A DNA stretch of 31,478 nucleotides from a virus. Position numbers and translations under genes: made by a program. Where the stretch lies: IMG/VR virus record IMGVR_UViG_3300030106_006487, positions 1 to 31,478 of that record. One strand, 5' to 3'. This document shows positions 16,093 to 31,052 of this stretch, in pieces. The notes beneath the pieces were generated by a model, which did not search any database, was not told where the DNA came from, and saw nothing but the letters and a program-made list of their open reading frames with translations. Position 1 is the first letter of the stretch. Each line of letters begins with the position of its first letter.

Positions 16093-16764
16093 ATGAACTT
16101 ACATTTACTTTGTGGTTTTCCTATTTTATATACAAATATAGATCCAAACAGCTATGATAAAGAAAAAATAATAGAAACAATAACTAATAATTATAAGAAA
16201 CAAAGTATAAGACAAGTGTGGTCAACGAGTGCTTATGAAACTAATATTCATCATTCAGCTGGAGATGAAGATAATGAAAAATTTATTACCCCAAACTATG
16301 ACAAACTTACAAAAACTTATGTTGAACCATTACAGGAATACAAAAAATTCTTAGGTTTAAAAAAAGAAATAGGATTTGATTTATGTGTAGCTAATTATAC
16401 ATGCAGCTCACATAAATCTTTCATGGAGCCCCACATACATTTTGAATGTGAATTCTCTATGATTCATTATTTAAAATTTGATCAGTCACAACATGCTCCA
16501 ACTATATTTCTTAATCCTTATGAATCTTGGGAGTGGTGGAGTAGAACACTTAAAAATAAAATTAATTGTGAAAAAACACACCAAGCATGGGTTTATTCTG
16601 AGTTAAACTATCCTACAAAAGAAGACGATTTAATAATTTTTCCTTCAATGTTTAGGCATTTTGTAAATAATAAACCTTCAAAAGACCCTAGAATAACTGT
16701 AGCATCAAATATTACCCTTATTCAAGATGAGAGGACTTCCAAAGACAAAAAATTAAATGTATAA
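16093..16764 (+). CDS. 2-oxoglutarate/Fe(II) dioxygenase-like protein (copy 1)
   Basis: A 223-residue protein resembling the phage-type 2OG-FeII_Oxy_5 group. The iron-site region is MEPHIHFECEFSMIHYL (from residue 111; H114, H116, E118), followed by FLNPYESWEWW, and the distal ligand lies in DDLIIFPSMFRHF (H189), with R200 as the expected 2-oxoglutarate anchor. These enzymes hydroxylate proteins, nucleobases or small molecules; the substrate is unknown. It is a lone gene between the capsid terminator and the gene at 16854, has no Shine-Dalgarno, and is markedly AT-rich, so it looks like cargo. Confidence 0.8.
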   Translation: MNLHLLCGFPILYTNIDPNSYDKEKIIETITNNYKKQSIRQVWSTSAYETNIHHSAGDEDNEKFITPNYDKLTKTYVEPLQEYKKFLGLKKEIGFDLCVANYTCSSHKSFMEPHIHFECEFSMIHYLKFDQSQHAPTIFLNPYESWEWWSRTLKNKINCEKTHQAWVYSELNYPTKEDDLIIFPSMFRHFVNNKPSKDPRITVASNITLIQDERTSKDKKLNV

Positions 16765-16853
16765 TCAAAAGACCTAGAAATAAATTATTATGTAGACTGG
16801 CTAGGCAGACGGTATAGAGACTACATAACTAACGCTATACAAAGGAGAAAATT
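16765..16853 (+). promoter_or_regulatory. leader of the structural gene at 16854
   Basis: An 89-nt gap ending in an AAAGGAG site. It contains the inverted repeat gtatag (16812-16817) and ctatac (16835-16840), 17 nt apart, and a GC-richer patch (16791-16812). A promoter is likely because the gene to the left is cargo, but no convincing -35/-10 pair is seen. Confidence 0.3.
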
Positions 16854-17624
16854 ATGGCAGGAACACACTTTACAAACGCAGTAATGTTTGCTGGTTTGAA
16901 TAATAATAAAAAATGGTTTAAAGATCTACCCGTAGATAACAACCCAAACTACGTATGTTATAAAGATGATTTTATTTATAACACTTTACCTTCATCAGAG
17001 TGGTCAACATCTATTGCAGATGGTGGTGCAGCAGCTGGAATTTCAAACGAAGTAGGTGGAGCAGTAACTTTAACTTCAGCTAATACTACAGATAACAATG
17101 GATTAGCTTTAGTAAAAACTGCAAACACTTTTCAAGCTGTAGCAGAGACTCAAGATAGCACAGGAGCAATTACTAACCCTGGAACAATTATTTGGTATGA
17201 AGCAAGAATACAAAATAATGATGCTAATGCTACTGACTACGGAACTGGATTAGTTGAAACTTTCACAGGAACTTCTGGATGGAGATCTGCAAACAGAATC
17301 TCTATTGAGTCGAACAATGGTGAACAGTTTTACAGATTTGTAACTAAAAATGCAGATGGAACAAATCAAGTTCAACATACTGCATATACTATTACTGATA
17401 GTTCATATGATACAGTTGGTTTTAGAGTTGATAGAGCTGGACTAGTTGAATTTTTTGTAAACAGAGAGCTAGCAGCTAGTGTTACATCAAATATCAACAC
17501 TGATGATATGCAAATGTTTGCAGCTTCAGTGTCAGCATCTGCTTCTGGTCAAAGAGTAACTAAGTTAGATTATATTACTTGTACTCAAAACAGAAACGGT
17601 TCTGAATTGATTGGTAAAATATAA
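16854..17624 (+). CDS. virion structural protein, beta-sandwich type
   Basis: A 256-residue protein with a good AAAGGAG site. Composition (Thr, Ser, Asn, Ala, Gly) and regular beta-strand alternation (TIIWYEARIQNND; DSSYDTVGFRVDRAGLVEFF then VNRELAA) suggest a concanavalin/LamG-like jelly roll such as seen in phage capsid-attached or fibre proteins. It sits behind the capsid gene after a single cargo gene. A head fibre or surface protein is an inference. A GC-rich hairpin follows its stop. Confidence 0.6.
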   Translation: MAGTHFTNAVMFAGLNNNKKWFKDLPVDNNPNYVCYKDDFIYNTLPSSEWSTSIADGGAAAGISNEVGGAVTLTSANTTDNNGLALVKTANTFQAVAETQDSTGAITNPGTIIWYEARIQNNDANATDYGTGLVETFTGTSGWRSANRISIESNNGEQFYRFVTKNADGTNQVQHTAYTITDSSYDTVGFRVDRAGLVEFFVNRELAASVTSNINTDDMQMFAASVSASASGQRVTKLDYITCTQNRNGSELIGKI

Positions 17625-17630
17625 TAATTA

Positions 17631-17650
17631 GTGGCTCCTTCGGGAGCCAC
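17631..17650 (+). terminator. 8-bp hairpin with UUCG tetraloop, no U-tract
   Basis: GTGGCTCC (17631-17638) and GGAGCCAC (17643-17650) enclose TTCG, a C(UUCG)G extra-stable tetraloop. It lies 6 nt after the stop of the gene at 16854, but is followed by AAACAAAAGGAG, the ribosome site of the next gene. Without a U-run it is more likely an RNA stability or processing element than a terminator. Confidence 0.5.
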
Positions 17651-17668
17651 AAACAAAAGGAGAATATT

Positions 17669-17962
17669 ATGTCAGGTGGAGGAAGTTTTTCATCAGATCA
17701 ATCGGTTGCTCATGCTACAAGTACAGTACAAATGGTGCCTACAACAAGAAGAGCGAGATTGACTTCAATACAGGGAAAAGGAAACAGTGCAAGTGGGTCT
17801 ATAATTTTTAGAACCGGTGGTGCTACTGGAGATATTATTGCAACATATCTATTTGGAGAAGAAGGTTTAGATATGTATTTACCTGGTTCTGGAATTTTAT
17901 TTGTAGAAGGAATTCACGCAACTATAGCAGGAACAGGTGGAGTAACTATTACATTCACGTAA
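17669..17962 (+). CDS. small beta-rich virion protein candidate
   Basis: A 97-residue protein starting after AAAAGGAG, just downstream of the UUCG hairpin. It is Gly/Ser/Thr-rich and beta-like (MSGGGSFSSDQSVAHATSTV; SIIFRTGGATGDIIATYLFG). Small proteins of this style occur among structural genes of pelagiphage-like genomes. A capsid-decorating or spike-like role is possible; no motif proves it. Confidence 0.6.
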   Translation: MSGGGSFSSDQSVAHATSTVQMVPTTRRARLTSIQGKGNSASGSIIFRTGGATGDIIATYLFGEEGLDMYLPGSGILFVEGIHATIAGTGGVTITFT

Positions 17963-17963
17963 G

Positions 17964-18680
17964 ATGAGTAAAATAAAACTGATTGAGTCTGGTGGCAGAT
18001 TTGCCGGTAAAAAACTTGCCGATGTATTAAAAAAAATAAAAAGAAGAAAAAGTGTACAAAGAAGTAGAGAAAGATTTAAAAAAACATATGGTTTTGAAAA
18101 AAATCAATCAGTAAAAATACCTGGAAAAGCTAAGCATTATCAAGCAAGTGCTGGAAGCACTGATACTTCAGCTATCGTTCCTGTAAAAGCTCAAACAAAA
18201 AAAGGAAGCTCATTTAAAGCTCATAAATTAAGAGGTAAAGGAAAAACTTCATATCAAATAAATAGACAAGGTACAGAGGGTTCATATGAATCATGGAGAT
18301 CTGATATGGAAAAATTGACCAACATGCCTTCTTTTAATGAAGTGTTTAAAACAATATTTAAGAAAAAAAGAAAAGCTTTTGGTGGTATGTTAAAATTAAA
18401 AAGAGGTGGAGATAACATGCCAGCTAGAAATAAAAAAAATTTTAGACCTACTGAAAAGGGTGCAGGTATGACAAGAGCAGGAGTAGCTGCATATAGAAGA
18501 GCAAACCCTGGTTCAAAATTAAAAACAGCTGTGACTGGTAAAGTCAAACCTGGTTCGAAAGCTGCTAATCGTAGAAAAAGCTTTTGTGCAAGATCTGCAG
18601 GGCAAATGAAAAAATTTCCTAAAGCTGCTAAAGATCCTAACTCAAGATTAAGACAAGCAAGAAGACGGTGGAAATGCTAA
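17964..18680 (+). CDS. Lys/Arg-rich protein with DUF6321-like C-terminal domain
   Basis: A 238-residue basic protein starting 1 nt after the previous stop. The C-terminal 87 residues (PTEKGAGMTRAGVAAYRRAN, PGSKLKTAV, SKAANRRKSFCARSAGQMKK, ending RRRWKC) match a conserved basic domain I recall as DUF6321, of unknown function. ATG 18418 (MPARNKKNF) lies behind a GGTGGAG site and would produce this domain alone, so internal initiation is plausible. It shares the KRGG and Lys-rich linker style with the proteins at 4019 and 10125. Confidence 0.7.
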   Translation: MSKIKLIESGGRFAGKKLADVLKKIKRRKSVQRSRERFKKTYGFEKNQSVKIPGKAKHYQASAGSTDTSAIVPVKAQTKKGSSFKAHKLRGKGKTSYQINRQGTEGSYESWRSDMEKLTNMPSFNEVFKTIFKKKRKAFGGMLKLKRGGDNMPARNKKNFRPTEKGAGMTRAGVAAYRRANPGSKLKTAVTGKVKPGSKAANRRKSFCARSAGQMKKFPKAAKDPNSRLRQARRRWKC

Positions 18681-18707
18681 TTGATTTTAAGTAATAATTA
18701 GTATAAT
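18681..18707 (+). promoter_or_regulatory. promoter of the carbamoyltransferase genes, leaderless
   Basis: TTGATT (18681-18686) and a perfect TATAAT (18702-18707) are separated by 15 nt. The -10 ends only 8 nt before ATG 18716, so transcription would start at or next to the start codon. There is no Shine-Dalgarno. Confidence 0.5.
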
Positions 18708-18715
18708 TTTCCTAA

Positions 18716-19630
18716 ATGATCTTAGGGATAAATATTTCTCATCATCCTTCTATATGTTTTTATAAAAATGGTAAAATAACTAATTTTTATAATGAAGAAA
18801 GATTTTTGTTTAACAAAGATTGGATTCCTACATCAAATAACTTTAAAGTTTTTAAAAGTATTTTAGAAAAAGTAAAAGAAAAACCTAAATTTGTTTGTTA
18901 CAGTTCTTACAATAGATTTGAACCTTTTGTAGATGAAGATTATCGAATTATTCAAATACTTCAAAATCAACTAAATAATCCAAATTATTTTTTTGAGGAA
19001 AAAAAACATCACTTATATCATGCTTGTGCGGGTTTTTATTTTTCTCCATTTACGGATGCTGTAGCTATAATTGTAGATGGTGGTGGGTCATGTAATTATA
19101 AAATTCCATTTAGAGAAACTGAATCCATATATTATATAAATAAAAAAACATTATATCCAATTTACAAACATAGTTCTAATAAGGCTAATCAAGATTTTCC
19201 TACAAAAGAATACGAAATGATAACAAATTTTACTGATGGTTTTGAAAATAAATTCTCACAAAATTCAATAGGAGGTTGGGTTTTTGTAGAAGGATGTAAA
19301 AAAGTTGGTTTTAAAGAACAACATGCAGGCAAGCTTATGGGTTTAGCGTCTTATGGTTATTGTAAAGATAAATATAATTTAAATTATGATTATGTTCAGA
19401 TTGCTAAGGATGCTCAAGAAAAAACGTTTAATGAAACTTGTCTTTTAATAGATAAAGCAAAAAAATTTTCTAATAATATTATTTTGTCTGGTGGGTATTT
19501 TTTAAATTGTTCAAATAATTTTAAATATGTAAAAAAATATCCAAATTTAAATTTTTTTATTGATCCAATACCTCATGATGGAGGCACAGCTATAGGAGTA
19601 TGTTATTACTATGAACATTATCACAAATAA
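18716..19630 (+). CDS. O-carbamoyltransferase, N-terminal (ASKHA-fold) half
   Basis: A 304-residue protein matching the first domain of NodU/CmcH/TobZ carbamoyltransferases, which move a carbamoyl group from carbamoyl phosphate to a hydroxyl via an adenylate. Recognisable blocks: GINISHHPSICFY (4-16), NEERF (26-30), a His-rich HHLYHACAGFYFSPF (98-112), VDGGG (120-124), GKLMGLASYG (205-214), ILSGGYFLNCSNN (256-268) and PHDGGTAIG (286-294). The frame stops exactly at the usual domain boundary; the second domain follows in another frame, overlapping by 20 nt. It has its own promoter. Confidence 0.85.
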   Translation: MILGINISHHPSICFYKNGKITNFYNEERFLFNKDWIPTSNNFKVFKSILEKVKEKPKFVCYSSYNRFEPFVDEDYRIIQILQNQLNNPNYFFEEKKHHLYHACAGFYFSPFTDAVAIIVDGGGSCNYKIPFRETESIYYINKKTLYPIYKHSSNKANQDFPTKEYEMITNFTDGFENKFSQNSIGGWVFVEGCKKVGFKEQHAGKLMGLASYGYCKDKYNLNYDYVQIAKDAQEKTFNETCLLIDKAKKFSNNIILSGGYFLNCSNNFKYVKKYPNLNFFIDPIPHDGGTAIGVCYYYEHYHK

Positions 19631-20150
19631 AGATGAAGCTATAAAAATATTACTTGAACAAAAACCACTTGTAATATTTCAAGGTGAAAGTGAATGGGGA
19701 GCTAGGGCTTTGGGTAATAGATCAATTTTATTTGATGCAAGAAATCCAAATGCAAAAGAAATTGTAAATAAATTTAAAAAAAGGGAATGGTGGAGACCTT
19801 TAGCTGGATCTATTCTATTAGAACATGCACATGAATATTTTAATTTTGGCTCATTAAAAGAAAGTCCAACCATGTCATTTGCAGTTGACGCTAAAGAAAA
19901 AGCATTAAAAGAGGTTCCATCCATAGTACATGTGGATAATACTTGTAGAGTTCAAACAGTGTCACCTAATGATAATAAAAATTATTATGATTTAATAAAA
20001 TTATTTTATGCTAAAACTAATGTTCCCATACTTCTCAATACATCTTTTAATTTAGCAGGATATCCTATTGTAGAGGATTTTGATCAGTTAAAATTTACAG
20101 TAGATCAATCTCAGTTCAAAGATATTTATATGCCAAATAAAATGTGTTAA
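19611..20150 (+). CDS. O-carbamoyltransferase, C-terminal domain as a separate ORF
   Basis: A 179-residue protein matching the C-terminal domain of the same family: IFQGESEWGARALGNRSILF (23-42), KKREWWRPLAGSI (57-69), a DNTCRVQTV motif, and PILLNTSFNLAGYPIVED near the end. The start ATG 19611 lies inside the end of the N-terminal frame (+1 relative to it); AGGAG is 12 nt upstream. All landmark motifs are intact in both halves, so the pair probably makes a working two-chain enzyme, though a recent frameshift or programmed slippage cannot be excluded. Confidence 0.82.
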   Translation: MNIITNKDEAIKILLEQKPLVIFQGESEWGARALGNRSILFDARNPNAKEIVNKFKKREWWRPLAGSILLEHAHEYFNFGSLKESPTMSFAVDAKEKALKEVPSIVHVDNTCRVQTVSPNDNKNYYDLIKLFYAKTNVPILLNTSFNLAGYPIVEDFDQLKFTVDQSQFKDIYMPNKMC

Positions 20151-20158
20151 TCTAGTGC

Positions 20159-20803
20159 ATGTCTTACTTAAATGCTAATATACCACCTATATATTGTAAA
20201 ATAAGAAAGGAATATTTATATGATCTTAAAAAACATCATAACGAAAGTGAAGAGTGTGTTATCTTTGGGCTCACCTCCATATCAGGACGTGCGATCTTAT
20301 TTAACATCATGCTTCCCAACGGTGCATGCTTTTGGCGTTTGCCTATCTCAGCGTTTTTCCAAAAATCGTATGATAGAGCCGATGTGCCGAATATGCAGAC
20401 GCACGAATTGGAACTGTGGAACTGTTTCAGTTATTGGCCTAGTGTTCATCGGTTTGATTGGCTGGCTGGTCTAAATGGCAAATTCCTAGGTATAAACAAA
20501 AAGTTTTATCATGGAAACTATTTATTTACAGTTGATTGGGGTCATCCAGAAACTAACATATTGGATGTTGAACATTCTGAAATACCTCAAGAACATAAGT
20601 GTGCGCATATATTGGCTCTTAATAACGGTAATTATGCAGCTCAGCCTAATAATCGTATTCTCTGGCACGTTAATAGTTATACTACTGATAACAGTTGGCC
20701 AGATTACAAAGTTCAAACTACATACTGGGATGCTGAAGATAGTGGATTGGTTACAGAAGACAGTGATAAAATGTTTTATGAAATGGAAAAAAAAGGATTT
20801 TGA
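20159..20803 (+). CDS. conserved phage protein (MSYLNANIPPIYCKIRKEYL start), function unknown
   Basis: A 214-residue protein that I recognise as a widely conserved uncharacterised family of marine and other short-tailed phages: it opens MSYLNANIPPIYCKIRKEYL, has GLTSISGRAILFNIMLPNGA, then ELWNCFSYW and FTVDWGH, and a late KCAHILALNNGNYAAQPNNR. Trp and His are abundant, hinting at a ligand-binding fold. No Shine-Dalgarno is seen. DNA from about 20260 to 20480 is richer in G+C than the rest of the gene. No function is known to me. Confidence 0.75.
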   Translation: MSYLNANIPPIYCKIRKEYLYDLKKHHNESEECVIFGLTSISGRAILFNIMLPNGACFWRLPISAFFQKSYDRADVPNMQTHELELWNCFSYWPSVHRFDWLAGLNGKFLGINKKFYHGNYLFTVDWGHPETNILDVEHSEIPQEHKCAHILALNNGNYAAQPNNRILWHVNSYTTDNSWPDYKVQTTYWDAEDSGLVTEDSDKMFYEMEKKGF

Positions 20804-20817
20804 AAAGGAGTAAAAAA

Positions 20818-20988
20818 ATGATTAATAAATGGATTTATAAATTTGTTGAGGCACTAGACAAAGCAGGTTTAATAGTTGATAATCTTATCCAATTTATGAG
20901 CGAGATAAAAATGAACTATTATTTTACCGGTGCATTGATTGTAATGTTGGTGGTCTTGGCTTTTTGTGGAGGGCCTGGTGTCCAATAA
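20818..20988 (+). CDS. small single-span membrane protein
   Basis: A 56-residue protein from ATG 20818, preferred over 20800 because AAAGGAG precedes it by about 7 nt. An amphipathic helix (1-30) is followed by a transmembrane segment at 35-50 (FTGALIVMLVVLAFCG). It is the first of four small, partly hydrophobic genes leading to the endolysin, so a holin or antiholin role is plausible. It overlaps the next gene by 11 nt. Confidence 0.6.
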   Translation: MINKWIYKFVEALDKAGLIVDNLIQFMSEIKMNYYFTGALIVMLVVLAFCGGPGVQ

Positions 20989-21400
20989 ACCACTAAACAT
21001 ATCTGAGGAGGCTGCTGTGCAAATGCCGATGAAGACGGTGGCTTCGTTAATAATTATCGTAGCACTTGGAACAATGGGCTACTTTCAAATTATAGAACGT
21101 CTTAATGTTGCAGACACTCGTATACAAATAATGGAAAAAGATCTCGAAGAAAACACAGAGTTTAGAATCAAATGGCCTCGGGGTCAACTTGGTTCGCTCC
21201 CGGCAGATTCCGAACAATTTATGATGATTGAAGATCTTTACAAGACCACGGATAAGTTAAATGCACATATTGAATCGATGGCTTTGAATAAAGTAAACAT
21301 AGAATTTTTAAGAGGACAAATGGATAAGGTTTTGATTGATATTGAAAAGTTAAAAGATGCAAATCGTGAAATGAAATATACAAATGGAGGTCCACAATGA
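20978..21400 (+). CDS. membrane-anchored coiled-coil protein in the lysis cluster
   Basis: About 140 residues from GTG 20978, 4 nt after GGAGGG; a GTG at 20966 or an internal start near 21017, behind GAGGAGG, are alternatives. One membrane span at about 21-37 (VASLIIIVALGTMGYFQ) is followed by a helical region (ERLNVADTRIQIMEKDLEEN), a conserved KWPRGQLGSLPADSEQFMMI patch and further coiled coil. This is a familiar hypothetical family in marine phages next to endolysins. A spanin-like or holin-associated role is inferred from topology and place. Confidence 0.6.
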   Translation: MSNKPLNISEEAAVQMPMKTVASLIIIVALGTMGYFQIIERLNVADTRIQIMEKDLEENTEFRIKWPRGQLGSLPADSEQFMMIEDLYKTTDKLNAHIESMALNKVNIEFLRGQMDKVLIDIEKLKDANREMKYTNGGPQ

Positions 21401-21648
21401 TAGAAAAACTAATGACAATGTTGGTAGGAATTTTATTAGCACTTGCTGGATGGAGTTTATCTCGTACGTTTGAATTATCTACAGGTCAAGCAGTTCTTTT
21501 AGATAAAGTTGAAAGATTAGAAATGCAGTCAAGATTATTAGAAGATAAACTTGCTGAAATGGCTGACTCTGACGAAGAAATCATGGAACAACATGAAAAA
21601 TTATTTGAAAAATTAGAACGAGGAAATACGGGGTATAGTTATAATTAA
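21397..21648 (+). CDS. small membrane/coiled-coil protein, holin or spanin candidate
   Basis: An 83-residue protein overlapping the previous stop (ATGA) with GGAGG upstream. An N-terminal membrane span (5-20, LMTMLVGILLALAGWS) is followed by an acidic coiled coil (VLLDKVERLEMQSRLLEDKL). The layout of one span and a periplasmic-type coiled coil resembles inner-membrane spanin components, but no partner lipoprotein motif is seen. The ATG of the next gene overlaps its stop. Confidence 0.6.
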   Translation: MIEKLMTMLVGILLALAGWSLSRTFELSTGQAVLLDKVERLEMQSRLLEDKLAEMADSDEEIMEQHEKLFEKLERGNTGYSYN

Positions 21649-21860
21649 TGATAGAATCTGTGGTAGCCTTATTAATGTTTGTAAACGGAGAAATTCGTGA
21701 ACACCTTGTGCAGCCCAAAGGAATGGCACAATGCCTTCGAGGAAAACGCCACGCGGAACGTGAGTATAGTGAATCTGTGTCTTATAAATGTTTTAAAGGT
21801 AAAGCAGAGATAGAAATATACAAAGGTAGAAAATATATTAAAGCTTTAATATTGGAGTAA
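21648..21860 (+). CDS. small hypothetical protein before the endolysin
   Basis: A 70-residue protein with a short hydrophobic start (MIESVVALLMFVNGEI), then a basic polar region with two Cys (MAQCLRGKRHAEREYSESVS and YKCFKGKAEI) and a beta-like C terminus. The two Cys could form a disulfide if the protein is exported, but the hydrophobic stretch is short for a signal peptide. It is coupled by a TAATG overlap to the gene before, and the endolysin starts 2 nt after it. Function unknown. Confidence 0.55.
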   Translation: MIESVVALLMFVNGEIREHLVQPKGMAQCLRGKRHAEREYSESVSYKCFKGKAEIEIYKGRKYIKALILE

Positions 21861-21862
21861 TC

Positions 21863-22339
21863 ATGAATCTTAGTCGTAATTTTACTCTTCAAGAGTTAAT
21901 TAAATCTGACACTGCAATTAGGTTAGATATCAATAACAATCCAAACTCAGGTCAAATAGAAAAACTAAAAGATCTTTGTGAAAATATTTTACAGCCAGTG
22001 CGTGACCATTTCGGTAGAGTAAAAGTGACTAGCGGTTTCCGTAGCGAGCAGCTGTGTCTAAAGATAGGTAGCTCAGTCAACAGCCAACATGCCCGTGCAG
22101 AAGCTGCGGATTTTGAAGTGATGGGCACAGATAATGCTGAACTAGCTGACTGGGTTAACAAGAACCTAGATTACGATCAATTGATACTCGAGTTCTACAC
22201 TCCTGGCGAACCCAATTCGGGATGGATACACTGTAGTTACACTAATGACCAACCTAGAAAACAATTCTTGCATGCTTATAAATTTGAAGGTAAAACTAAA
22301 TACAAACCAATAATTGGAAAAGCAAAAGATTTAGTTTGA
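21863..22339 (+). CDS. endolysin, M15-type zinc peptidase
   Basis: A 158-residue single-domain enzyme matching peptidase M15 (PF08291-like) endolysins, which cut peptidoglycan stem peptides. SGFRS (57-61) is followed by zinc ligands H76 and D83 in SQHARAEAADFE, a probable catalytic acid E110 in DYDQLILEF, and the third ligand H123 in WIHCSY. There is no signal peptide, so release must depend on one of the upstream membrane proteins. It closes the lysis cluster; its TGA overlaps the TTG start of the next gene. Confidence 0.93.
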   Translation: MNLSRNFTLQELIKSDTAIRLDINNNPNSGQIEKLKDLCENILQPVRDHFGRVKVTSGFRSEQLCLKIGSSVNSQHARAEAADFEVMGTDNAELADWVNKNLDYDQLILEFYTPGEPNSGWIHCSYTNDQPRKQFLHAYKFEGKTKYKPIIGKAKDLV

Positions 22340-22848
22340 ATCCACATATAAAAAAATTTAAAGTTGAAGATTTTAAAAAACATCAAGAAAATTTAATTAA
22401 TCTTATAAATAAAACTGCATCAAAAAGCTTAATTGAAAATAATCAAAAAATATTAGCTACAGATTGGCAAATTATTTCTGAAAATGTAAAAAGAGATTAT
22501 GTGCAATATTTTATATTTAATATTCTAAATAAACTTTCTCCGCTTTATGGTAAAGAATTTAATTGTGAAAAAATTGAACTTATAAATATTTGGTTTCAAA
22601 TATATGGTAAAGGTGGATTTCATGGAAAACATAGGCATTCAAATGCTCATTTTTCTAACGTTCTTTTTTTAAAATTACCAGAAAAAAATTTAAAAACTAA
22701 AATATATGATTTAAATAATTCAATAATTGAAACTGATATTAATGAGGGTGATATTATAACTTTTCCTGCATATTTAAAACATGAATCTTTAATAAATATA
22801 TATGACGAAAATAAAATTATAATTTCTTATAACATAAACATTGTATGA
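22336..22848 (+). CDS. 2-oxoglutarate/Fe(II) dioxygenase-like protein (copy 2), TTG start
   Basis: A 170-residue protein starting at TTG 22336, which overlaps the endolysin stop; no internal Met exists, so TTG is the credible start. The core reads IWFQIYGKGGFHGKHRHSNA (H96, H99, H101), then SNVLFLKLPE, then NEGDIITFPAYLKHES (H149) and IIISYNI. This is the small phage dioxygenase pattern, but the usual acidic iron ligand after the first His is not obvious (HxH), and Lys replaces the Arg near the end, so activity is uncertain. It is very AT-rich. Confidence 0.72.
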   Translation: MNPHIKKFKVEDFKKHQENLINLINKTASKSLIENNQKILATDWQIISENVKRDYVQYFIFNILNKLSPLYGKEFNCEKIELINIWFQIYGKGGFHGKHRHSNAHFSNVLFLKLPEKNLKTKIYDLNNSIIETDINEGDIITFPAYLKHESLINIYDENKIIISYNINIV

Positions 22849-23390
22849 TTAATTTTGAATTAATAAATCTTCCCATACCTAAAAGAGTAAATAATAATAT
22901 CTTAAACTATTTAGGTACAAAAAAATGGAGTTTTGTAAATGACAGAGATGAAGATGAAAAAAATTTACTATCAAATATAGTTAGAGATATAGATAAAAAA
23001 GATGCGGGCCAAGCAATTATTACCTACAATAAACTTCATCCTAATCCAGAAGTAGATCAGGATAATATATTAAATTTTTTTGGTGATCTTATATTTGCTT
23101 CCATACAAGAAAAAACAAAATTTAAAGTAAAAGAAGTATCAAGAGTATATTGGAATCTATATTCAAAATCATCTAGTTGTCTCTATCATCAAGATGACAA
23201 GAGCATTGATAAATACATGTCTGCAGTATATAATTTACACACTAATGATGGTGGAACTATGATTGAAGATAAATTTATACCAGCTGTGGAGAGCCAAGCA
23301 ATTTTATTTAAAAGTGAAATAATGCACAAAGGTATGCCGCCTAAAAACGATAATTTAAGATTAAGTTTAAATATAGTAATGGAGTTATAA
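22845..23390 (+). CDS. 2-oxoglutarate/Fe(II) dioxygenase-like protein (copy 3)
   Basis: A 181-residue protein with a complete facial triad: H115 and D117 in LYHQDD, H161 in SEIMHKGMPP, and R172 in LRLSLNI as the 2-oxoglutarate anchor, with the intervening strand pair AVYNLHTNDGGTMI. It overlaps copy 2 by 4 nt (ATGA) and has no Shine-Dalgarno, so it is probably coupled to it. Its start region has the N-terminal helices usual for such enzymes. Substrate unknown. Confidence 0.82.
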   Translation: MINFELINLPIPKRVNNNILNYLGTKKWSFVNDRDEDEKNLLSNIVRDIDKKDAGQAIITYNKLHPNPEVDQDNILNFFGDLIFASIQEKTKFKVKEVSRVYWNLYSKSSSCLYHQDDKSIDKYMSAVYNLHTNDGGTMIEDKFIPAVESQAILFKSEIMHKGMPPKNDNLRLSLNIVMEL

Positions 23391-23521
23391 TGACAATAGG
23401 AAGGTCACAAATAAGAAAACAAGTAGAAGGTAAATTAAGAGGCGCAAGAGATGAAAAAAAGAAGAAAAAACGTATCCTTGCCAAATTATATAGCAAAAAG
23501 TCTAAGGTCTTCAAAGTTTAG
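23390..23521 (+). CDS. 43-residue basic small protein
   Basis: ATG 23390 overlaps the preceding TAA, with GGAG 5 nt upstream; the stop TAG is at 23519-23521. It is strongly basic (MTIGRSQIRKQVEGKLRGAR, then a run of Lys). Small Arg/Lys-rich proteins starting like this occur beside connector genes in related phages as I recall. The tight junction supports translation. Function unknown. Confidence 0.55.
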   Translation: MTIGRSQIRKQVEGKLRGARDEKKKKKRILAKLYSKKSKVFKV

Positions 23522-23531
23522 TCAAAAAGTG

Positions 23532-23552: not shown

Positions 23553-23571
23553 AACCGTAAAAAGGATAATA

Positions 23572-24267: not shown

Positions 24268-24674
24268 TGGCTAAATTTGCAACAGGAAAAAGATCACAAT
24301 CAATATCGGATAGATCTGGTATGGCTTTTCCTTACACTGAGATGGTAAAAGAATGGAATGGTTCTTTAGTTCATTATTCAGAATTCGAACCTAAGCATCC
24401 ACAAATAAGAAGAAAACATACAACTGCTGATGCGATAGCTTTACAAAATTCAAGAAACATGAAGTTTCAACAACCCTCTATAAAATTTTCTAATGATGTT
24501 ACAATATCAGATTCTGGTGGAGCATCTGTTGGTGTAGCAAATTTATCTTTACCTGGAGACTTTGCTTTTATAACACAAGGAACTTCAGCTATGAAACCAG
24601 CAGATCCCTCTTTACAAAATAGAAGAAGAAAACTTCTTTCAAATATAGGTCAAGTGGAGGTTAGTATTTCATAA
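24267..24674 (+). CDS. conserved connector-module protein, function unknown
   Basis: A 135-residue protein whose start overlaps the previous stop. The conserved-looking segment SDRSGMAFPYTEMVKEWNG, followed by SLVHYSEFEPKHPQI, recurs in marine phage proteins located between the two connectors. The C terminus is basic (LQNRRRKLLSNIGQ). A minor virion protein at the head-tail interface is inferred from position. Confidence 0.68.
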   Translation: MAKFATGKRSQSISDRSGMAFPYTEMVKEWNGSLVHYSEFEPKHPQIRRKHTTADAIALQNSRNMKFQQPSIKFSNDVTISDSGGASVGVANLSLPGDFAFITQGTSAMKPADPSLQNRRRKLLSNIGQVEVSIS

Positions 24675-25336
24675 TGGCAATTACACATTCAGATTTTTTA
24701 ACACAAGTACGAAACTATACAGAAGTTAGCAGCACTGTATTGTCAGATTCTCAAATACAAGAATTTATAAGAAACGTTGAATTAGATATTGCAGGTAAAG
24801 TTGACTATGATGATTTACGAAAGTATGCAAATTCTACTTTTACGGCAGGAAATAGAGCTGTATCAATGCCATCAGATGTTTTAGTTTTAAGATCTGTAGA
24901 GCGTTTAGATTCAAGTGGTGTTAGAAGCTTTTTAGAAAAAAGAGACACGAGTTTTATTTCTGAATTTAATGGATCTGGAGCACAAGGCACACCAAAATAT
25001 TTTGCAAATTGGGATGAGTTTAATATTATTGTAGCACCTACACCAGCTGCTGCAGATACAATACAAATAAATTATATAAAAGATCCACCTGAATTTACAT
25101 CTACTAATCAAACATATATAGCTAAATACCAAGAGTCTATGTTATTACACGGTGTCTTAGCTGAGTGTTTTAGATTTTTAAAAGGCCCTATGGATATGTA
25201 CAAGCTCTATGAAAGCAAGTACAATGAGGAAATACAGAATTTTGCCCTACAACAAATGGGTAGAAGAAGACGAGCGGAGTATGACGATGGAGTTCCTAGA
25301 ATACAGGTTCCAAGTCCTACTCCAAACACAAATTAA
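24674..25336 (+). CDS. phage adaptor / head-tail joining protein
   Basis: A 220-residue protein overlapping the previous stop, GGAGG about 12 nt upstream. Pattern: SDFLTQVRNYTEVSSTVLSD, then IQEFIRNVELDIAGKV, beta strands around GNRAVSMPSDVLVLRSVERL, then a C-terminal helix MLLHGVLAECFRFLKG, as in adaptor proteins of short-tailed marine phages. The tail ends with a Pro-rich extension. It completes the connector set. Confidence 0.75.
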   Translation: MAITHSDFLTQVRNYTEVSSTVLSDSQIQEFIRNVELDIAGKVDYDDLRKYANSTFTAGNRAVSMPSDVLVLRSVERLDSSGVRSFLEKRDTSFISEFNGSGAQGTPKYFANWDEFNIIVAPTPAAADTIQINYIKDPPEFTSTNQTYIAKYQESMLLHGVLAECFRFLKGPMDMYKLYESKYNEEIQNFALQQMGRRRRAEYDDGVPRIQVPSPTPNTN

Positions 25337-25349
25337 TAAGGAGGCCATT

Positions 25350-25793
25350 ATGGCAATAACAACAAATGCAATATGCGATTCTTTTAAAAAAGAATTACTA
25401 CAAGGAAAGCATGATTTTGATGGATCATCGGATACATATAAATTAGCGATGTACACATCATCAGCAACTTTAGGTAAATCAACTACAAACTATGCAACTG
25501 CAAACGAAGTATCTTCACCAAACTATTCTGCTGGTGGATCTGCTTTAGTAAATCAAGGTGTAAAAGTTTCATCTTCTGTAGCTATTACAGATTTTGCTGA
25601 TTTATCTTTTCAAAACGTAACTCTTACTGCAAGAGGTGCCTTAATATACAACACAACAACTGATGGTGGTTCAGGAACTACTGATGCTGTTGCTGTATTA
25701 GATTTTGGTGGTGATAAGACTGCAACATCTGGAACGTTTACAGTTCAGTTTCCAGCTTTCACAACTTCAGCAGCTATATTAAGATTAGCTTAA
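25350..25793 (+). CDS. virion appendage protein, beta-rich
   Basis: A 147-residue protein from ATG 25350, chosen because AAGGAGG lies 7 nt upstream; an in-frame GTG at 25209 would merely read through the preceding gene. The sequence has DSFKKELLQGKHDF then DTYKLAMYTSS and a Thr/Ser/Gly-rich beta region ending FTTSAAILRLA. Proteins of this kind lie at the start of tail-fibre modules in marine phages. A fibre base or tail structural protein is inferred. Confidence 0.62.
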   Translation: MAITTNAICDSFKKELLQGKHDFDGSSDTYKLAMYTSSATLGKSTTNYATANEVSSPNYSAGGSALVNQGVKVSSSVAITDFADLSFQNVTLTARGALIYNTTTDGGSGTTDAVAVLDFGGDKTATSGTFTVQFPAFTTSAAILRLA

Positions 25794-25814
25794 TAATTAT
25801 GGGAGCCCGATCTA

Positions 25815-27119
25815 GTGTCATACACAACATTTACTGTTACAGTATCTGACCCTGGCTCGGGTAACCGATATTATATAGATGGAGCTTTACAAGCTACTGT
25901 CCCTCTAGCTTATGGAGCTACCTATCGTTTTGATCAATCAGATTCTTCAAACGCAACTCACCCTTTAAGATTTTCATTAACCTCTGATGGAACACACAAC
26001 TCTGGTACAGAGTATACAACAGGTGTAACTTATGTTGGAACTCCAGGGTCCGCTGGAGCCTACACACAATTTGTTGTAACAGAAGTTGGTCCTCCAGCAA
26101 CAATGTATTATTATTGTTCAAGCCACCCAAATATGGGCGGAGCTGCAAATCTAACATCAAATTCTTGGGGTGGTTTACCTTGGGGCAATAGTACTTGGGG
26201 TGATCAAGGTCACGTTGATATATCAGCTACAGGACAATCTTTAACTTCAAGTATTGGGACTTTACAATCAGTAACAGGAAACGCTCTTGTTCAACCAAGT
26301 GGAATACAACTTTCTTCATCACAAGGAGCAACTGTTGGAGGAAGTTCTGTCACAGTTTCAGTAACTGGAAGTTTAGAATCTTTAGGTGTTGGCCAAGTTG
26401 TATCTGGAATTGGTGCTCTTACAACAGGGTCATCAATGACTTCAAGCATTGGAGCAGCTACTGTTGATGAATCTACACTAACAGGAGAAGGTTGGGGTAG
26501 GTCTGCATGGGGAGAATTTGCATGGGGTGTAAATTATTCTGTTGCATTAACAGGGCAAAGCTTAACATCATCTATTGGCGAAGAAGCAGGATTTACTGAT
26601 GTAACAGTTTCAGTAACAGGTCAATCTTTAACATCTACACTAGGATTAATTTCATTAATTGGAGATTTTGGAACTGTTGTAAATGCAGCCGAACATCAAA
26701 TAGATTTTACAATAGCAAGTGCTACTACTACTGCAGATGCTAACGTATCTCCTTCAGGTATTTCGTTATCTGGATCAATAGGTCAGGTAGTTCCTGAGCC
26801 TAAATTTATTGCAGAAGTTACAGGAATGCAAGCAACCTTTAGTATAGGTTCAATATCTTTAGTGCAAACTACCAATGAACCAGTTACAGGACAAACTATT
26901 ACTATGTCCTTGGGAGAAGAAGAACAAGCTAATGTTTACCCTGTTTCAGGGTCTACAATGACAAGTTCTGTAGGATCTGTAACGGTTGTAGGTGGAGCAG
27001 GAATAGACGTTTCAGGCATACAAATGACAGCTTCTGTAGGAAGTCCGATGATTACCGCTTGGGCAGAGATAGATCTAGGAGTATCTAATACTTGGACGGT
27101 AGTTGATTTGGCTGCCTGA
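25815..27119 (+). CDS. tail/appendage protein with cupredoxin-like domain and beta repeats
   Basis: A 434-residue protein starting at GTG 25815 with GGGAG 9 nt upstream. Residues 1-115 resemble a cupredoxin fold: H49 (NATHPLRFS) and C101-x2-H104-x2-M107 (YYYCSSHPNMGG) are spaced like type-1 copper ligands. A Trp/Gly motif WGGLPWGNSTWG follows and recurs as WGRSAWGEFAWG. From about 140 to the end there are about eleven degenerate repeats centred on (T/S)GxxxTxSxG, for example TGQSLTSSIG. Likely a fibre or adhesin; whether copper is bound is untested. Confidence 0.68.
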   Translation: MSYTTFTVTVSDPGSGNRYYIDGALQATVPLAYGATYRFDQSDSSNATHPLRFSLTSDGTHNSGTEYTTGVTYVGTPGSAGAYTQFVVTEVGPPATMYYYCSSHPNMGGAANLTSNSWGGLPWGNSTWGDQGHVDISATGQSLTSSIGTLQSVTGNALVQPSGIQLSSSQGATVGGSSVTVSVTGSLESLGVGQVVSGIGALTTGSSMTSSIGAATVDESTLTGEGWGRSAWGEFAWGVNYSVALTGQSLTSSIGEEAGFTDVTVSVTGQSLTSTLGLISLIGDFGTVVNAAEHQIDFTIASATTTADANVSPSGISLSGSIGQVVPEPKFIAEVTGMQATFSIGSISLVQTTNEPVTGQTITMSLGEEEQANVYPVSGSTMTSSVGSVTVVGGAGIDVSGIQMTASVGSPMITAWAEIDLGVSNTWTVVDLAA

Positions 27120-27155
27120 TTAATGTAAAATGTAAATTAATAAGGAGAATTTTTT

Positions 27156-28397
27156 ATGACATCAAGTTATTCAAGTGATCTTAAACTAGAGCTAATGGTA
27201 ACCGGCCAAAACGCTGGTACTTGGGGTGACAAAACAAATACAAATTTAAATTTAATTCAACAAGCCGTAGCTGGTTTTGAACAAGTAACACTTTCAAGTG
27301 GTGGCACTCTTGCTCTTGCGATGAGTGATGCAACTTTATCGAATGCAAGAAACATGGTAATCAAATTTGCAACAGCATCAATTGCTGCTAGCACAATTTG
27401 TACTATACCAGATTCAATTGAAAAATTTTATATTTTTGATGCAACAGGATTAACAAATCCAACAAACCTTACAATTAAAACTGCTTCAGGATCAGGATTT
27501 ACTTTAGACCAAGCAAAAATTTATGCAGCTTATTCAGACGGAACTAATTTAAACGAAATTTCTTTAGATACTTTAGGTGGAACTGTTGCAGCTGCAAATA
27601 TTACAGGCACTATAGCTACTGCCCAAATCGCAGATGATGCTGTTACTTATGCAAAAATTCAAGACACCACAACTGCAAACAGAGTTATAGGAGCTGCTTC
27701 TGCTGGAGCAGTAGGGGAAGTTCAAGTTGCTACTGACATGATTGCGGATGACGCTGTTACGGCAGATAAATTAGCAAACACTGCAGTAACTGCAGCTAGT
27801 TACACACTTTCATCAATTACTGTAGATGCACAAGGAAGAATTACTGCTGCATCTTCAGGTTCAGCTGGCGGAGGATTTCAACCAAAACATTATTTTGATG
27901 GTCCAGCTTCAGGAACATATACTTCAAATGGAAACAAAGTTACGATATATGCTGCTTCAGGTAATGGAGCAGGAGGGACTGCAAGAGGAGGATCTACCAA
28001 TGCGCAAAATGGTGGAGCAAGTGTTATAGCACTGATGACAGCTCCTATATCGGCACCTTTCTCACAACCATATGCAGTTGGAGGAGGAGGTATTGGTCCT
28101 CATCATCCTAACGGACCTCCAGGCACTGCGGGTGGTTCAACAAGTATTGCAAACTTATTTACTTTAAACGGCGGAGCTGGTGGTTTAAATGGTCCAGTAT
28201 CACCAAGAGATGGAACTGCCGGATCAGTAGATCCTGGCGGAAATAAAACTGTTGTAAAATCTACAACGTCTACAAATGATTGGTTTTACTTTGCAGGAAA
28301 CGTTATAAGAAGTTTTGGACCAGGAGGTATATCACCTTATGGTATGGGTACATCAGGAAATCCTGGAAAATTAGTAATCTTTGACGATGCGAGTTAA
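27156..28397 (+). CDS. tail fibre protein with Gly-rich tip
   Basis: A 413-residue protein behind AAGGAG. The N-terminal LMVTGQNAGTWGDKTNTNLN (13-32) is the signature start of many marine phage tail fibres. The middle has paired IADDAVTYAKI and IADDAVTADKL motifs, and DAQGRITAASSG leads into a C-terminal glycine-rich receptor-binding-type region (ASGNGAGGTARGG; GGGGIGPHHPNGPPG). It probably recognises the host surface. The next gene starts 2 nt after its stop and may be its assembly helper. Confidence 0.82.
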   Translation: MTSSYSSDLKLELMVTGQNAGTWGDKTNTNLNLIQQAVAGFEQVTLSSGGTLALAMSDATLSNARNMVIKFATASIAASTICTIPDSIEKFYIFDATGLTNPTNLTIKTASGSGFTLDQAKIYAAYSDGTNLNEISLDTLGGTVAAANITGTIATAQIADDAVTYAKIQDTTTANRVIGAASAGAVGEVQVATDMIADDAVTADKLANTAVTAASYTLSSITVDAQGRITAASSGSAGGGFQPKHYFDGPASGTYTSNGNKVTIYAASGNGAGGTARGGSTNAQNGGASVIALMTAPISAPFSQPYAVGGGGIGPHHPNGPPGTAGGSTSIANLFTLNGGAGGLNGPVSPRDGTAGSVDPGGNKTVVKSTTSTNDWFYFAGNVIRSFGPGGISPYGMGTSGNPGKLVIFDDAS

Positions 28398-28399
28398 TT

Positions 28400-28840
28400 A
28401 TGAGTAAACATATAATTTTTATGGAAAGTGGAAGAGTTGGTTTAGCACCAACAGATGAAAAAAAAGATGCGTGGGTAACAAGATATCCAAACGCTACAGT
28501 AAAAACATGTAGCGATGAAGAATATACAAAATCATGTTGGGTAACTCCTACATTAAGTGGAGACACAGTTTCGTGGGAAACAATGAATGATTCTGATCCA
28601 ATTTCTGATGCTAGTGAAGCTCAAAATCTTTTAAACATAACAAGAAATGGTTTGATAGATAACATCAAAGCAAAATGTTGGTCAGAGTATGATAATGACG
28701 AAGATGCTAAAACTTTGGTTTCTTTTTTAGAGGGGATAGATGTAACATCTGTAAGCTCGATACCAAGTAGCAACGTGCTTAAATTTATATATGAAATGCC
28801 AGGTTGTCCACAAATATTTATAGAAGAATTAATTCACTAG
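28400..28840 (+). CDS. tail fibre assembly / chaperone candidate
   Basis: A 146-residue protein immediately after the tail fibre. N-terminal beta-like segment (IIFMESGRVGLAPTDEK), then helical segments (NLLNITRNGLIDNIKAKCWS; AKTLVSFLEGIDVTSV). Its location and size fit fibre-assembly proteins, but no sequence signature proves it. No Shine-Dalgarno of quality is present, so it is probably coupled to the fibre gene. Confidence 0.5.
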   Translation: MSKHIIFMESGRVGLAPTDEKKDAWVTRYPNATVKTCSDEEYTKSCWVTPTLSGDTVSWETMNDSDPISDASEAQNLLNITRNGLIDNIKAKCWSEYDNDEDAKTLVSFLEGIDVTSVSSIPSSNVLKFIYEMPGCPQIFIEELIH

Positions 28841-28871
28841 ATTACTTTAATATTTTGTTGTAAAAATCCTT

Positions 28872-29447
28872 ATGGATTTAAATGATTTTTTAGAAGTTTA
28901 CGATAACGCACTTCCTTTAGAAAATATAGCAACTATTATAAAATGGGTAAATACGCAATCTGAGTTTGAATCTGGTGGCATTGGTAAAGATTGCAAAATA
29001 GATAAAACTATTAGAGATGTTGAAATTCTTCATTTAAATTATTACGATGGAAAATCTAAAACCAGAATTCATTGGGGTAACTATATTAATTTTATCATAT
29101 GGAATGGAATGAAAATGTATGAAAATAAAAAATGTCCCATACATGGCGGAATTTCAATTGAAGGTATTAATGAATTAAGTATTTTAAAGTATGAAAAAGG
29201 AGGATTCTATAGTATTCATTCTGATCATTTTGGTGCAAGACCTAGAACTTTATCGGCAATTATGTTTTTAAATAATGATTATGAAGGTGGTCATTTAGAA
29301 TTTTATGATCCAAGTAATAAATTAATGAGAGATATAGAACCAGTCCCTGGAAGATTAATTATATGGCCTAGTAATTTTATGTATAAACACAAGGTTACGC
29401 CTGTAACAAAAGGAACTAGATTTTCAATAGTAGCATGGGCGATATAA
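28872..29447 (+). CDS. 2-oxoglutarate/Fe(II) dioxygenase, prolyl-4-hydroxylase-like (copy 4)
   Basis: A 191-residue protein with all expected residues: H116 and D118 in YSIHSDHF, H173 in MYKHKV, and R183 in GTRFSIVAW as the 2-oxoglutarate anchor, joined by AIMFLNNDYEGGHLEFYD, the strand pair typical of P4H-type enzymes. No Shine-Dalgarno; the gap upstream (28841-28871) is AT-rich with only a weak TAAAAA -10 candidate. It opens a cluster of four dioxygenase-like genes directly after the fibre genes and overlaps the next by 13 nt. Substrate unknown. Confidence 0.86.
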   Translation: MDLNDFLEVYDNALPLENIATIIKWVNTQSEFESGGIGKDCKIDKTIRDVEILHLNYYDGKSKTRIHWGNYINFIIWNGMKMYENKKCPIHGGISIEGINELSILKYEKGGFYSIHSDHFGARPRTLSAIMFLNNDYEGGHLEFYDPSNKLMRDIEPVPGRLIIWPSNFMYKHKVTPVTKGTRFSIVAWAI

Positions 29448-29989
29448 AAAAAGATAAATATAAATTAGTTAAAAACTTTTTAAGTAAAGAAGAACTTGAG
29501 ATAGGTTTACATTATTTACATTTATGTCACGAAAGAAATGAAATTAATTTTGATACAGATCAAAATAATAATGGCGACTCTATGTTTTATGGTGATGCAT
29601 TTACAGATGTTATGCTAATAAAAAAATTAGCAAAAATGGAAGAAGAAACTGGCTTATCTTTGTTTCCTACATATAGTTTTTCTAGAGTCTATACATATAA
29701 TGCTGAGTTAAAAAAACATAAAGACCGTCCCTCATGTGAAGTATCTGTATCTGTTATGTGGGGTAGTTGTGGAACTGTATGGCCTTTTAAAGTTGAAAAT
29801 TCATCTTTTGAATTAAAAGGAGGGGACGCAATAATTTATTTAGGGTGTGAAGTTGAACATTGGAGAGAACCGTTTGAAGGAGATTATCATATACAATCTT
29901 TTTTACATTATGTAGATAAAAATGGTCCTAATAAAGAATGGAAGTACGATAAAAGAAACAAAAAAACAGATCCAATAATGAGAAAATGA
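29435..29989 (+). CDS. 2-oxoglutarate/Fe(II) dioxygenase-like protein (copy 5)
   Basis: A 184-residue protein with H95 and D97 in KKHKDRPSCE and H142 in CEVEHWREPFEGD; where an Arg anchor is expected, the sequence reads YHIQSFLHYV, so a different residue (perhaps Q154 or R144) would contact 2-oxoglutarate. The CEVSVSVMWGSCGTVWPF and GGDAIIYLGCEVEHWREPF blocks match a phage and marine-bacterial dioxygenase subgroup I recall. No Shine-Dalgarno; 13-nt overlap with copy 4 and ATGA overlap with copy 6 imply co-translation. Confidence 0.8.
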   Translation: MGDIKKDKYKLVKNFLSKEELEIGLHYLHLCHERNEINFDTDQNNNGDSMFYGDAFTDVMLIKKLAKMEEETGLSLFPTYSFSRVYTYNAELKKHKDRPSCEVSVSVMWGSCGTVWPFKVENSSFELKGGDAIIYLGCEVEHWREPFEGDYHIQSFLHYVDKNGPNKEWKYDKRNKKTDPIMRK

Positions 29990-30462
29990 AAATACAAGAT
30001 AATTTTCTTGAGGAAAATATTTTTAAAAATTTACAGAAAATTATAATGTCTGATGATTTTCCTTGGTACTATCAAAACAAAGTTGTTGATATAAATGATG
30101 ATTTCTTTTTTTCCCATATTTTATATATGGATGATCGTCAAAAAAGTGATTTATTTTATTTGTGTCATCCTATTATTGGAAAAATAAATTTTACAAAAAT
30201 AATTAGAGTTAAATTAAATTGTTATACAAGAAAAGAAAATCATATAAAACATGGATGGCATACAGATCAAGTAGACACTCCTAATGCTAAAGTAGCTTTA
30301 TTTTCTTTTAATACAAATAATGGATATACATTATTTAAGAATAATGATAAAGTTGCTTCAAAAGAAAATACAATTATTTTTTTTGATAACGATCAAGAAC
30401 ATGCAAGTGTCTCACAAACTGATAAATTTTTAAGAATAAATATGAATATAAATTACGTATGA
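29986..30462 (+). CDS. 2-oxoglutarate/Fe(II) dioxygenase-like protein (copy 6)
   Basis: A 158-residue protein with H92 and D94 in HGWHTDQ, H139 in FFDNDQEHAS and R150 in KFLRINMNINY. The region IIRVKLNCYTRKENHIKH before the first ligand is the expected strand and turn. It overlaps both neighbours by 4 nt (ATGA), the signature of a tightly coupled cassette. It is very AT-rich and without a Shine-Dalgarno. Substrate unknown. Confidence 0.82.
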   Translation: MKIQDNFLEENIFKNLQKIIMSDDFPWYYQNKVVDINDDFFFSHILYMDDRQKSDLFYLCHPIIGKINFTKIIRVKLNCYTRKENHIKHGWHTDQVDTPNAKVALFSFNTNNGYTLFKNNDKVASKENTIIFFDNDQEHASVSQTDKFLRINMNINYV

Positions 30463-31052
30463 TTGAACCAATAAAAAAAATTAATTACATAAAAGATTTT
30501 ATAGGAATTTTTGATAATTACGTTGATGAGGAAACTTGTGATAAAATAATTTCAAGTTTTGAATTAAATAAAAAAAATCAAGCTATTGACAGAAAAGAAG
30601 CTGATAACTCAACTGAAATAGTAAAAAAAGATTTGGCAATTCATTATTTTAAAGGTCACAATTGGATACCAGAATTAGATACTTGTGAAACTTATTTAAG
30701 AGAAGCTATAAAATTATATGACGACACTACTGGATTTACTAGTTTTATAAACATGACAGAGTTACACTTTTCACCTTACAAAGTTCAAAGAACTTTACCT
30801 GGAGAAGGTTATCATGTTTGGCATATTGAAAGAAATTATCAAGAGATTTGTTTTAGAGCATTAGTTTTAACAATATATTTGAATGACGTAAACGAAGGTG
30901 GAGAAACAGAATTTTTATTACAATCACAAAGAGTAAAACCAAAAAAGGGTAGAATACTTCTTTTTCCTGCTGACTTTCCATATGTTCACAGAGGAAACCC
31001 ACCTTTACAAAAAGACAAATATATATTAACTTCGTGGTTAGCATCAAAATGA
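30459..31052 (+). CDS. 2-oxoglutarate/Fe(II) dioxygenase-like protein (copy 7)
   Basis: A 197-residue protein with H122 and E124 in GYHVWHIERN (Glu instead of the commoner Asp), H177 in YVHRGNPP and K187 in KDKYILTSWL as the likely 2-oxoglutarate anchor. ALVLTIYLNDVNEGGETEFL is the P4H-like strand pair. This subgroup with a Lys anchor and VHRGNPP is familiar from marine phages. It ends the four-gene dioxygenase cassette; ATGA overlaps on both sides. Confidence 0.85.
   Translation: MIEPIKKINYIKDFIGIFDNYVDEETCDKIISSFELNKKNQAIDRKEADNSTEIVKKDLAIHYFKGHNWIPELDTCETYLREAIKLYDDTTGFTSFINMTELHFSPYKVQRTLPGEGYHVWHIERNYQEICFRALVLTIYLNDVNEGGETEFLLQSQRVKPKKGRILLFPADFPYVHRGNPPLQKDKYILTSWLASK

Follow-up and report, generated by a model that had tools for sequence, protein, structure and literature searches.

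Introduction

Genes for oxygenases dependent on Fe(II) and 2-oxoglutarate (2OG) have been described in several groups of marine phages. Cyanomyoviruses commonly carry between one and five (PMC3037559), cyanophage S-CREM1 has ten (PMC9964418) and S-SCSM1 has 24 (PMC9602691), while eight non-orthologous types were reported in 2022 across the genomes of HTVC023P-type pelagiphages (PMC9599517). A gene annotated as 'ferrochelatase' features in the same literature. It appears as T4-GC615, 'Hyp. with ferrochetalase domain', in the cyanophage comparison of 2010 (PMC3037559); Wittmers et al. 2022 regarded the pelagiphage protein as a haem-pathway partner, always found next to a 2OG gene (PMC9599517), and in a time-series study phrog_2954 was listed among the seasonal auxiliary metabolic genes (PMC11561400). 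Here we analyse the first 31,478 bases (the window) of the 49,588-base virus record IMGVR_UViG_3300030106_006487, in which a sequence-only reading had placed seven mutually divergent 2OG oxygenase-like genes. We describe eight predicted oxygenases in this record, one of them a member of the 'ferrochelatase' family, and consider what they may act upon.

The reading had taken the DNA to come from a phage, and its TerL protein and gene order narrow this to the pelagiphages. Judged by sequence, the phage is a relative of the HTVC023P-type pelagiphages, which infect the SAR11 bacterium Pelagibacter. Its TerL shares 70% identity with that of Pelagibacter phage HTVC023P and 60–62% with those of 023Pt_psg01 and HTVC027P, and the order TerL, SU10-like portal, GroES-like gene, capsid, tail genes and fibre region is that of HTVC023P-type podovirus-type pelagiphages. 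The 49.6-kb record is probably incomplete: HTVC023P is longer, at 60.9 kb, and genes continue past the ends of the record.

Results

Eight divergent oxygenases

The phage almost certainly encodes eight divergent Fe(II)/2OG oxygenases of the double-stranded beta-helix superfamily, with a prolyl-hydroxylase-like fold and intact active-site motifs. All seven genes of the sequence-only reading are intact open reading frames (ORFs) on the forward strand and are placed in the superfamily by Pfam, by profiles or by fold; seven were counted instead of eight because the window was cut before the last, Ox8, at 34502-34942 of the record. Five of the eight pass the Pfam gathering score, namely Ox1 (16093..16764, E 8.2e-9) and Ox2 (22336..22848, E 3.3e-11) for PF13759, and Ox4 (28872..29447, E 3.7e-21), Ox7 (30459..31052, E 4.5e-11) and Ox8 for PF13640, while Ox3 (22845..23390), Ox5 (29435..29989) and Ox6 (29986..30462) match no Pfam family at E<=1. 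Among PHROG families, Ox1 (E 9e-26) and Ox2 belong with phrog_81, Ox3 and Ox6 (E 2.5e-42) with phrog_274, Ox4 and Ox7 (E 2e-45) with phrog_61, and Ox5 with phrog_2954/T4-GC615. Matches to PDB sequences link Ox2 to 2RG4 (E 6.6e-7), and Ox4 to the Pseudomonas putida prolyl 4-hydroxylase (P4H) 4iw3 (E 1.4e-5) and also to EGLN1.

The metal triad, HxD/E (or HxH)...H, can be read in all eight genes, as judged from the sequences and their conservation. The first ligands are HxH in Ox1 (HIH) and Ox2 (HRH), HxD in Ox3 (HQD), Ox4 (HSD), Ox5 (HKD), Ox6 (HTD) and Ox8 (HDD), and HxE in Ox7 (HIE). A basic residue that would anchor 2OG follows the distal His by 10–11 positions in seven of the eight (Arg at +11 in Ox1, Ox3 and Ox6 and at +10 in Ox4 and Ox8; Lys at +11 in Ox2 and at +10 in Ox7), the exception being Ox5, with a non-canonical anchor. 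This agrees exactly with the variation described beforehand, in which first ligands were HxD, HxE or HxH and anchors Arg, Lys or uncertain. The HxH of Ox2 is a normal trait of PF13759, because the solved structures 2RG4 and 3BVC of that family align with it at this position, as they do along the C-terminal strand; both are uncharacterised bacterial proteins, whereas Ox2 belongs to a phage.

Strong divergence among the genes had been proposed, with recent duplication and separate acquisition as the possibilities to be distinguished. The best pairwise identities among the eight are only about 20–33%, over partial lengths, and each gene occupies a separate cluster at 40% identity; recent tandem duplication is thereby ruled out. 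The ratio of nonsynonymous to synonymous substitution rates (dN/dS) is 0.03–0.22 for the seven genes with a close relative, indicating purifying selection (0.22 for Ox2, 0.06 for Ox4, 0.05 for Ox6 and 0.07–0.08 for Ox7), while Ox1 has a single distant relative, at 26% identity, in the loci fetched. The stop codons of Ox2, Ox5 and Ox6 overlap with the starts of Ox3, Ox6 and Ox7, respectively, and 13 bases are shared between Ox4 and Ox5; this suggests translational coupling. Mis-assembly is unlikely, since independent contigs reproduce the gene order: that of 28872-30459 recurs in assemblies L085 and L086/L169/L248, and that of 22336-22845 in L250, at 86–97% protein identity.

Fold and profile evidence

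AlphaFold models were built for Ox5 and Ox3, from alignments of 52 and 41 sequences; among the other six, Ox6 was placed by profiles only, and Ox1, Ox2, Ox4, Ox7 and Ox8 by Pfam matches above the cut-off. The Ox5 model is of high confidence (predicted local distance difference test, pLDDT, 95.4; predicted template modelling score, pTM, 0.91), and its best Foldseek matches in the PDB are PHD2 (4bqy, E 1.3e-7) and P. putida P4H (4j25, E 1.4e-7), with template modelling scores of 0.64–0.68. Its top 50 PDB folds are all 2OG/AlkB-type oxygenases. Residues H95, D97 and H142 are invariant across the 52 family members, and in place of a basic residue at +9 to +11 the invariant R84, R144 or Q154 are candidate anchors. 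For Ox3 (pLDDT 86.7) the best PDB matches are again P. putida P4H (4j25/4iw3, E 1.8e-6), and neither H115 nor H161 varies in the 41-sequence phrog_274 alignment. Profile-profile comparison with hhalign ties Ox3 and Ox6 to PF13640-type genes at 99.6–99.9% probability (99.8–99.9% for Ox6). Absence of the fold or the triad from most of the genes had been named as the outcome that would refute the sequence-only reading; instead, both models have the fold and no gene lacks the motif. The phage enzymes have the double-stranded beta-helix and HxD...H in common with the prolyl hydroxylases P. putida P4H (4iw3, 4j25) and human PHD2/EGLN1, although identity in the fold matches is only 12–16% and Ox5 is without the usual Arg/Lys.

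Sequence profiles are less clear for Ox5. Its direct comparison with phrog_274 was weak (13%) with the first alignments; larger, purpose-built profiles gave 90.5% against Ox3 and 85.7% against Ox8. The assignment of Ox5 is therefore based on fold and triad and not on sequence profiles. The sole PDB sequence match of the Ox5 family, thymidylate synthase (E 0.09–1.1), was attributed to chance, given the different answer of the fold search.

Two mislabelled families

By its fold and metal triad, the family called 'ferrochelatase' in pelagiphages and cyanophages (phrog_2954, T4-GC615; here Ox5) is itself one of 2OG oxygenases. Of 50,697 phage records, 156 have an Ox5 homologue. Almost all of these are cyanophages or pelagiphages, and the homologues listed mostly bear the name ferrochelatase; the T4-GC615 tag is attached to Ox5-type proteins of S-PM2 and P-SSM7. 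As published, the protein would be a true ferrochelatase supplying iron or haem to the oxygenases, a reading that draws on the PHROG label, on the many GenBank annotations and on the adjacency to a 2OG gene (PMC9599517). We consider that there is virtually no chance of this being correct. The ferrochelatase profile PF00762 has no match at E<=1 in 52 Ox5-family members, nor in the proteins of S-PM2, P-SSM7, HTVC008M, S-CREM1 and HTVC023P, in all five of which the Ox5-type metal triad is kept; phrog_2954 has a match in none of 14 control genomes, and no ferrochelatase fold is found among the best 50 PDB folds of Ox5, the model being instead a 2OG prolyl-hydroxylase fold with invariant HxD...H. 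Furthermore, family members are only about 175–215 amino acids long, and 2OG oxygenases use non-haem iron, not haem.

Existing annotation is not uniform. Homologues of Ox5 are already labelled as 2OG/iron oxygenases in S-CREM1 and in record PV340851, and the annotation of 023Pt_psg01 hedges between the two names; in the literature searched, we found no publication stating the correction from ferrochelatase to 2OG oxygenase. A further family labelled ferrochelatase, phrog_3531, matches Ox5 in its first half and Ox4 in its last part, and from these alignments looks like a fusion of two oxygenases. The label 'DNA endonuclease V' of phrog_274 is a second mislabel, because of the evidence from Ox3, and this family too is one of 2OG oxygenases: neither Ox3 nor Ox6 has an endonuclease V match in Pfam at E<=1, and the fold of Ox3 is P4H-like instead.

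Copy number in related phages

Single copies had been supposed the norm in cyanophages and pelagiphages and the density seen here unusual, a view that the published counts contradict. The eight-gene set is not unprecedented, and the phage is a further example of documented 2OG-oxygenase arrays. HTVC023P, HTVC027P and the 023Pt genomes, which are of the same lineage (TerL 60–70%), likewise have several non-orthologous 2OG genes near tail-fibre genes, and two of the three named genomes have an adjacent 'ferrochelatase', as here. They differ in having three to five 2OG genes each against eight in the present record: by profile, in the parts read, four in HTVC023P, five (one weak) in 023Pt_psg01 and three in HTVC027P. 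T4-like cyanophages and pelagimyophages (S-SCSM1, S-CREM1, HTVC008M) resemble this phage in their multiple divergent PF13640/PF13759 genes and T4-GC615 homologues of Ox5, but these are larger myovirus genomes (HTVC008M 147 kb, S-CREM1 178 kb, S-SCSM1 229 kb) with fewer 2OG genes per kb.

Among 80 loci sampled through a conserved tail gene, and not through the 2OG genes themselves, 15 have no 2OG gene and 62 have at least two, of which 52 have two or three; the highest count is eight. Contig L241 has nine 2OG-like genes in 5.6 kb, eight of which match 2OG-type PHROGs at E<=0.001 (although the one at 2742-3290 has a higher-scoring match to a coat-protein family) and the ninth weakly (E 0.0028). 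The arrays of nine in L241, L243 and L244, each within about 5.6 kb, all have their last three genes on the opposite strand.

A stable slot with variable contents

Ox4–Ox7 (28872-31052) form a cassette of overlapping ORFs between a tail fibre with its neighbouring ORF and the conserved tail gene. The forward-strand gene at 27156..28397 is a putative tail fibre or adhesin (dN/dS 0.21), recognised by its position and by a Gly-rich, Pro-Gly-containing C-terminal tip; it is placed like a cluster of Gly-rich fibres that, in many of 104 distinct arrays of at least three genes, precede the array by two to three genes. These arrays were collected with 2OG genes as baits, so that counts from them describe the slot and not the frequency in phages at large. 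Between fibre and array, on the same strand, an ORF of 146 amino acids (28400..28840) has no PHROG or Pfam match and may be fibre-chaperone-like, to judge from its position; in its sequence start and placement it resembles a recurrent family of about 149 amino acids whose members precede about 50 arrays at a distance of one to two genes. The conserved tail gene is homologous to the phrog_3287-type gene that follows Ox7 in the present record. Where the window ends, a short run of N (about 31479-31488 of the record) breaks the beginning of this gene, which is therefore read as two ORFs (31323-31526 and 31489-33495).

The conserved tail gene lies within three genes of 84 of the 104 arrays, downstream in about 80 and immediately so in 68; a Gly-rich fibre lies near 55 and the 149-residue ORF near 50, both mostly upstream. 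Since the tail gene lies close to 84 arrays and these 84 have 52 different compositions (as clusters at 40% identity), the slot is stable and its oxygenase contents are shuffled among related phages. A family of about 244 amino acids, phrog_7084 (L205:1697-2452 and relatives), directly precedes the oxygenase array in 39 of the 104.

Association with the tail fibre

In 41 dereplicated loci, array composition correlates with the adhesin (r 0.61; partial r 0.58, p 0.001), whereas the core gene shows no such relation (partial r -0.02); within the fibre, the composition follows the C-terminal part, not the N-terminal part. Of 65 core-gene loci with a 2OG gene, 49 also have a Gly-rich fibre, compared with 2 of 15 loci lacking a 2OG gene (Fisher p 1.4e-5). 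Pro-Gly is modestly enriched in fibre tips, at 175 observed against a shuffled expectation of 143+/-10 (1.22x).

Several results weigh against a link between oxygenases and fibre. In the 34 loci with the 149-residue ORF, the partial correlation with the adhesin drops to 0.02 and it is this chaperone-like ORF that carries the signal (0.21, p 0.005). The association with Gly-rich tips may be clade structure, because phylogenetically independent pairs give only two concordant and no discordant cases, with three ties. No Gly-rich fibre is seen, in the part available, in 16 of the 62 loci with at least two 2OG genes, and the fibre of HTVC027P is not rich in Gly even though that phage has three 2OG genes. 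In the present record, Ox1, Ox2, Ox3 and Ox8 sit away from the fibre.

Other genes in the record

Upstream of the fibre, 25815..27119 on the forward strand encodes a tail-fibre-like protein (phrog_30742, E 6.5e-23; phrog_693 tail fibre, E 5.6e-17), preceded by an ORF at 25209-25793 that overlaps the gene before it by 128 bases and whose true start is probably a later internal ATG. A carbamoyltransferase of NodU/TobZ type is read as two overlapping ORFs in different frames, 18716-19630 (PF02543, N half) and 19611-20150 (PF16861, C half); the split may be a genuine form and not an error, since phrog_20469 is a stand-alone C half. The ORF at 20159-20803 matches phrog_3704 'ferredoxin' (E 2.5e-74), a label that looks doubtful, as there is no Pfam match at E<=1 and no evident ferredoxin Cys cluster. 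Beyond the window, 35269-36198 and 36185-37060 of the record are two adjoining glycosyltransferase-like genes; at the corresponding place, HTVC023P and HTVC027P have an annotated glycosyltransferase and then a hypothetical gene.

Discussion

Our picture joins an enzyme identity that is almost certain to a substrate, structural proteins of the phage with the fibre tip foremost, that is a guess and less likely right than wrong; for the picture as a whole we put the probability at roughly 60%. The sequence-only reading had suggested virion glycans, proteins or nucleotides, with the enzymes probably acting on different substrates or in sequence on one. By analogy with the superfamily, each enzyme would bind Fe(II) through its HxD/E/H...H motif, consume O2 and 2OG and hydroxylate one target. 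Produced late, alongside the virion proteins, the enzymes would modify residues of structural proteins, above all in the Gly-rich, Pro-Gly-containing fibre tip, with one site for each enzyme; such hydroxylation could tune the folding of the fibre or adsorption, and would account for the exchange of enzymes beside the fibre gene. The closest characterised solved structures are hydroxylases of proline in proteins, and this similarity of fold is the basis for supposing that the phage enzymes may hydroxylate protein prolines in the manner of P4H and PHD. A protein of the virion, possibly the tip of the fibre, is our tentative best guess at the substrate. Rather doubtful is a bolder proposal, of combinatorial tail-fibre-tip hydroxylation throughout pelagiphages and cyanophages, in which a swappable cassette of site-specific 2OG enzymes, 'ferrochelatase' included, would travel with the adhesin and alter its chemistry and host recognition.

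The enzymes might instead be directed at host proteins such as EF-Tu, ribosomal proteins or regulators, re-programming translation or the sensing of oxygen and nitrogen during infection. P. putida P4H, among the best structural relatives, was solved in complex with EF-Tu (4iw3). Bacterial ribosomal oxygenases also exist. Control through 2OG and NtcA has been proposed by cyanophage authors (PMC3037559). However, the neighbours of these genes are virion genes, not genes for early takeover, and their composition differs between relatives at the fibre locus, which would be odd for a conserved host target; we regard this explanation as possible, if on balance unlikely. Surface glycans, lipids or small metabolites are unlikely substrates. 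They would be modified together with the phage carbamoyltransferase (18716-20150) and glycosyltransferase-like genes (record 35269-37060), and the Foldseek matches do include the sugar and antibiotic oxygenases EvdO1 and SnoN, but those genes lie outside the oxygenase cassettes and the best matches are protein hydroxylases. An activity like that of TET/JBP or AlkB, with DNA bases or nucleotides as the target of oxidation, seems improbable. It could be argued from the 'DNA endonuclease V' label of phrog_274, from fold matches to the AlkB homologues ABH8 and ALKBH6, and from the thymidine hypermodification genes also present in HTVC023P-type phages (PMC9599517), yet the Pfam families are PF13640 and PF13759, with one weak nucleic-acid-type match (Oxygenase-NA) below the cut-off, and eight different base oxidases are implausible.

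With Ox5 re-assigned, the published explanation through haem or iron insertion falls away, as does the counting of this family among seasonal auxiliary metabolic genes (PMC11561400), and these phage genomes prove to hold more oxygenases than had been counted. Arrays of 2OG oxygenases are already on record in phages that infect the ocean's most abundant bacteria. If the idea of fibre-tip modification is true, they would constitute a virus-encoded protein-hydroxylation system controlling adsorption.

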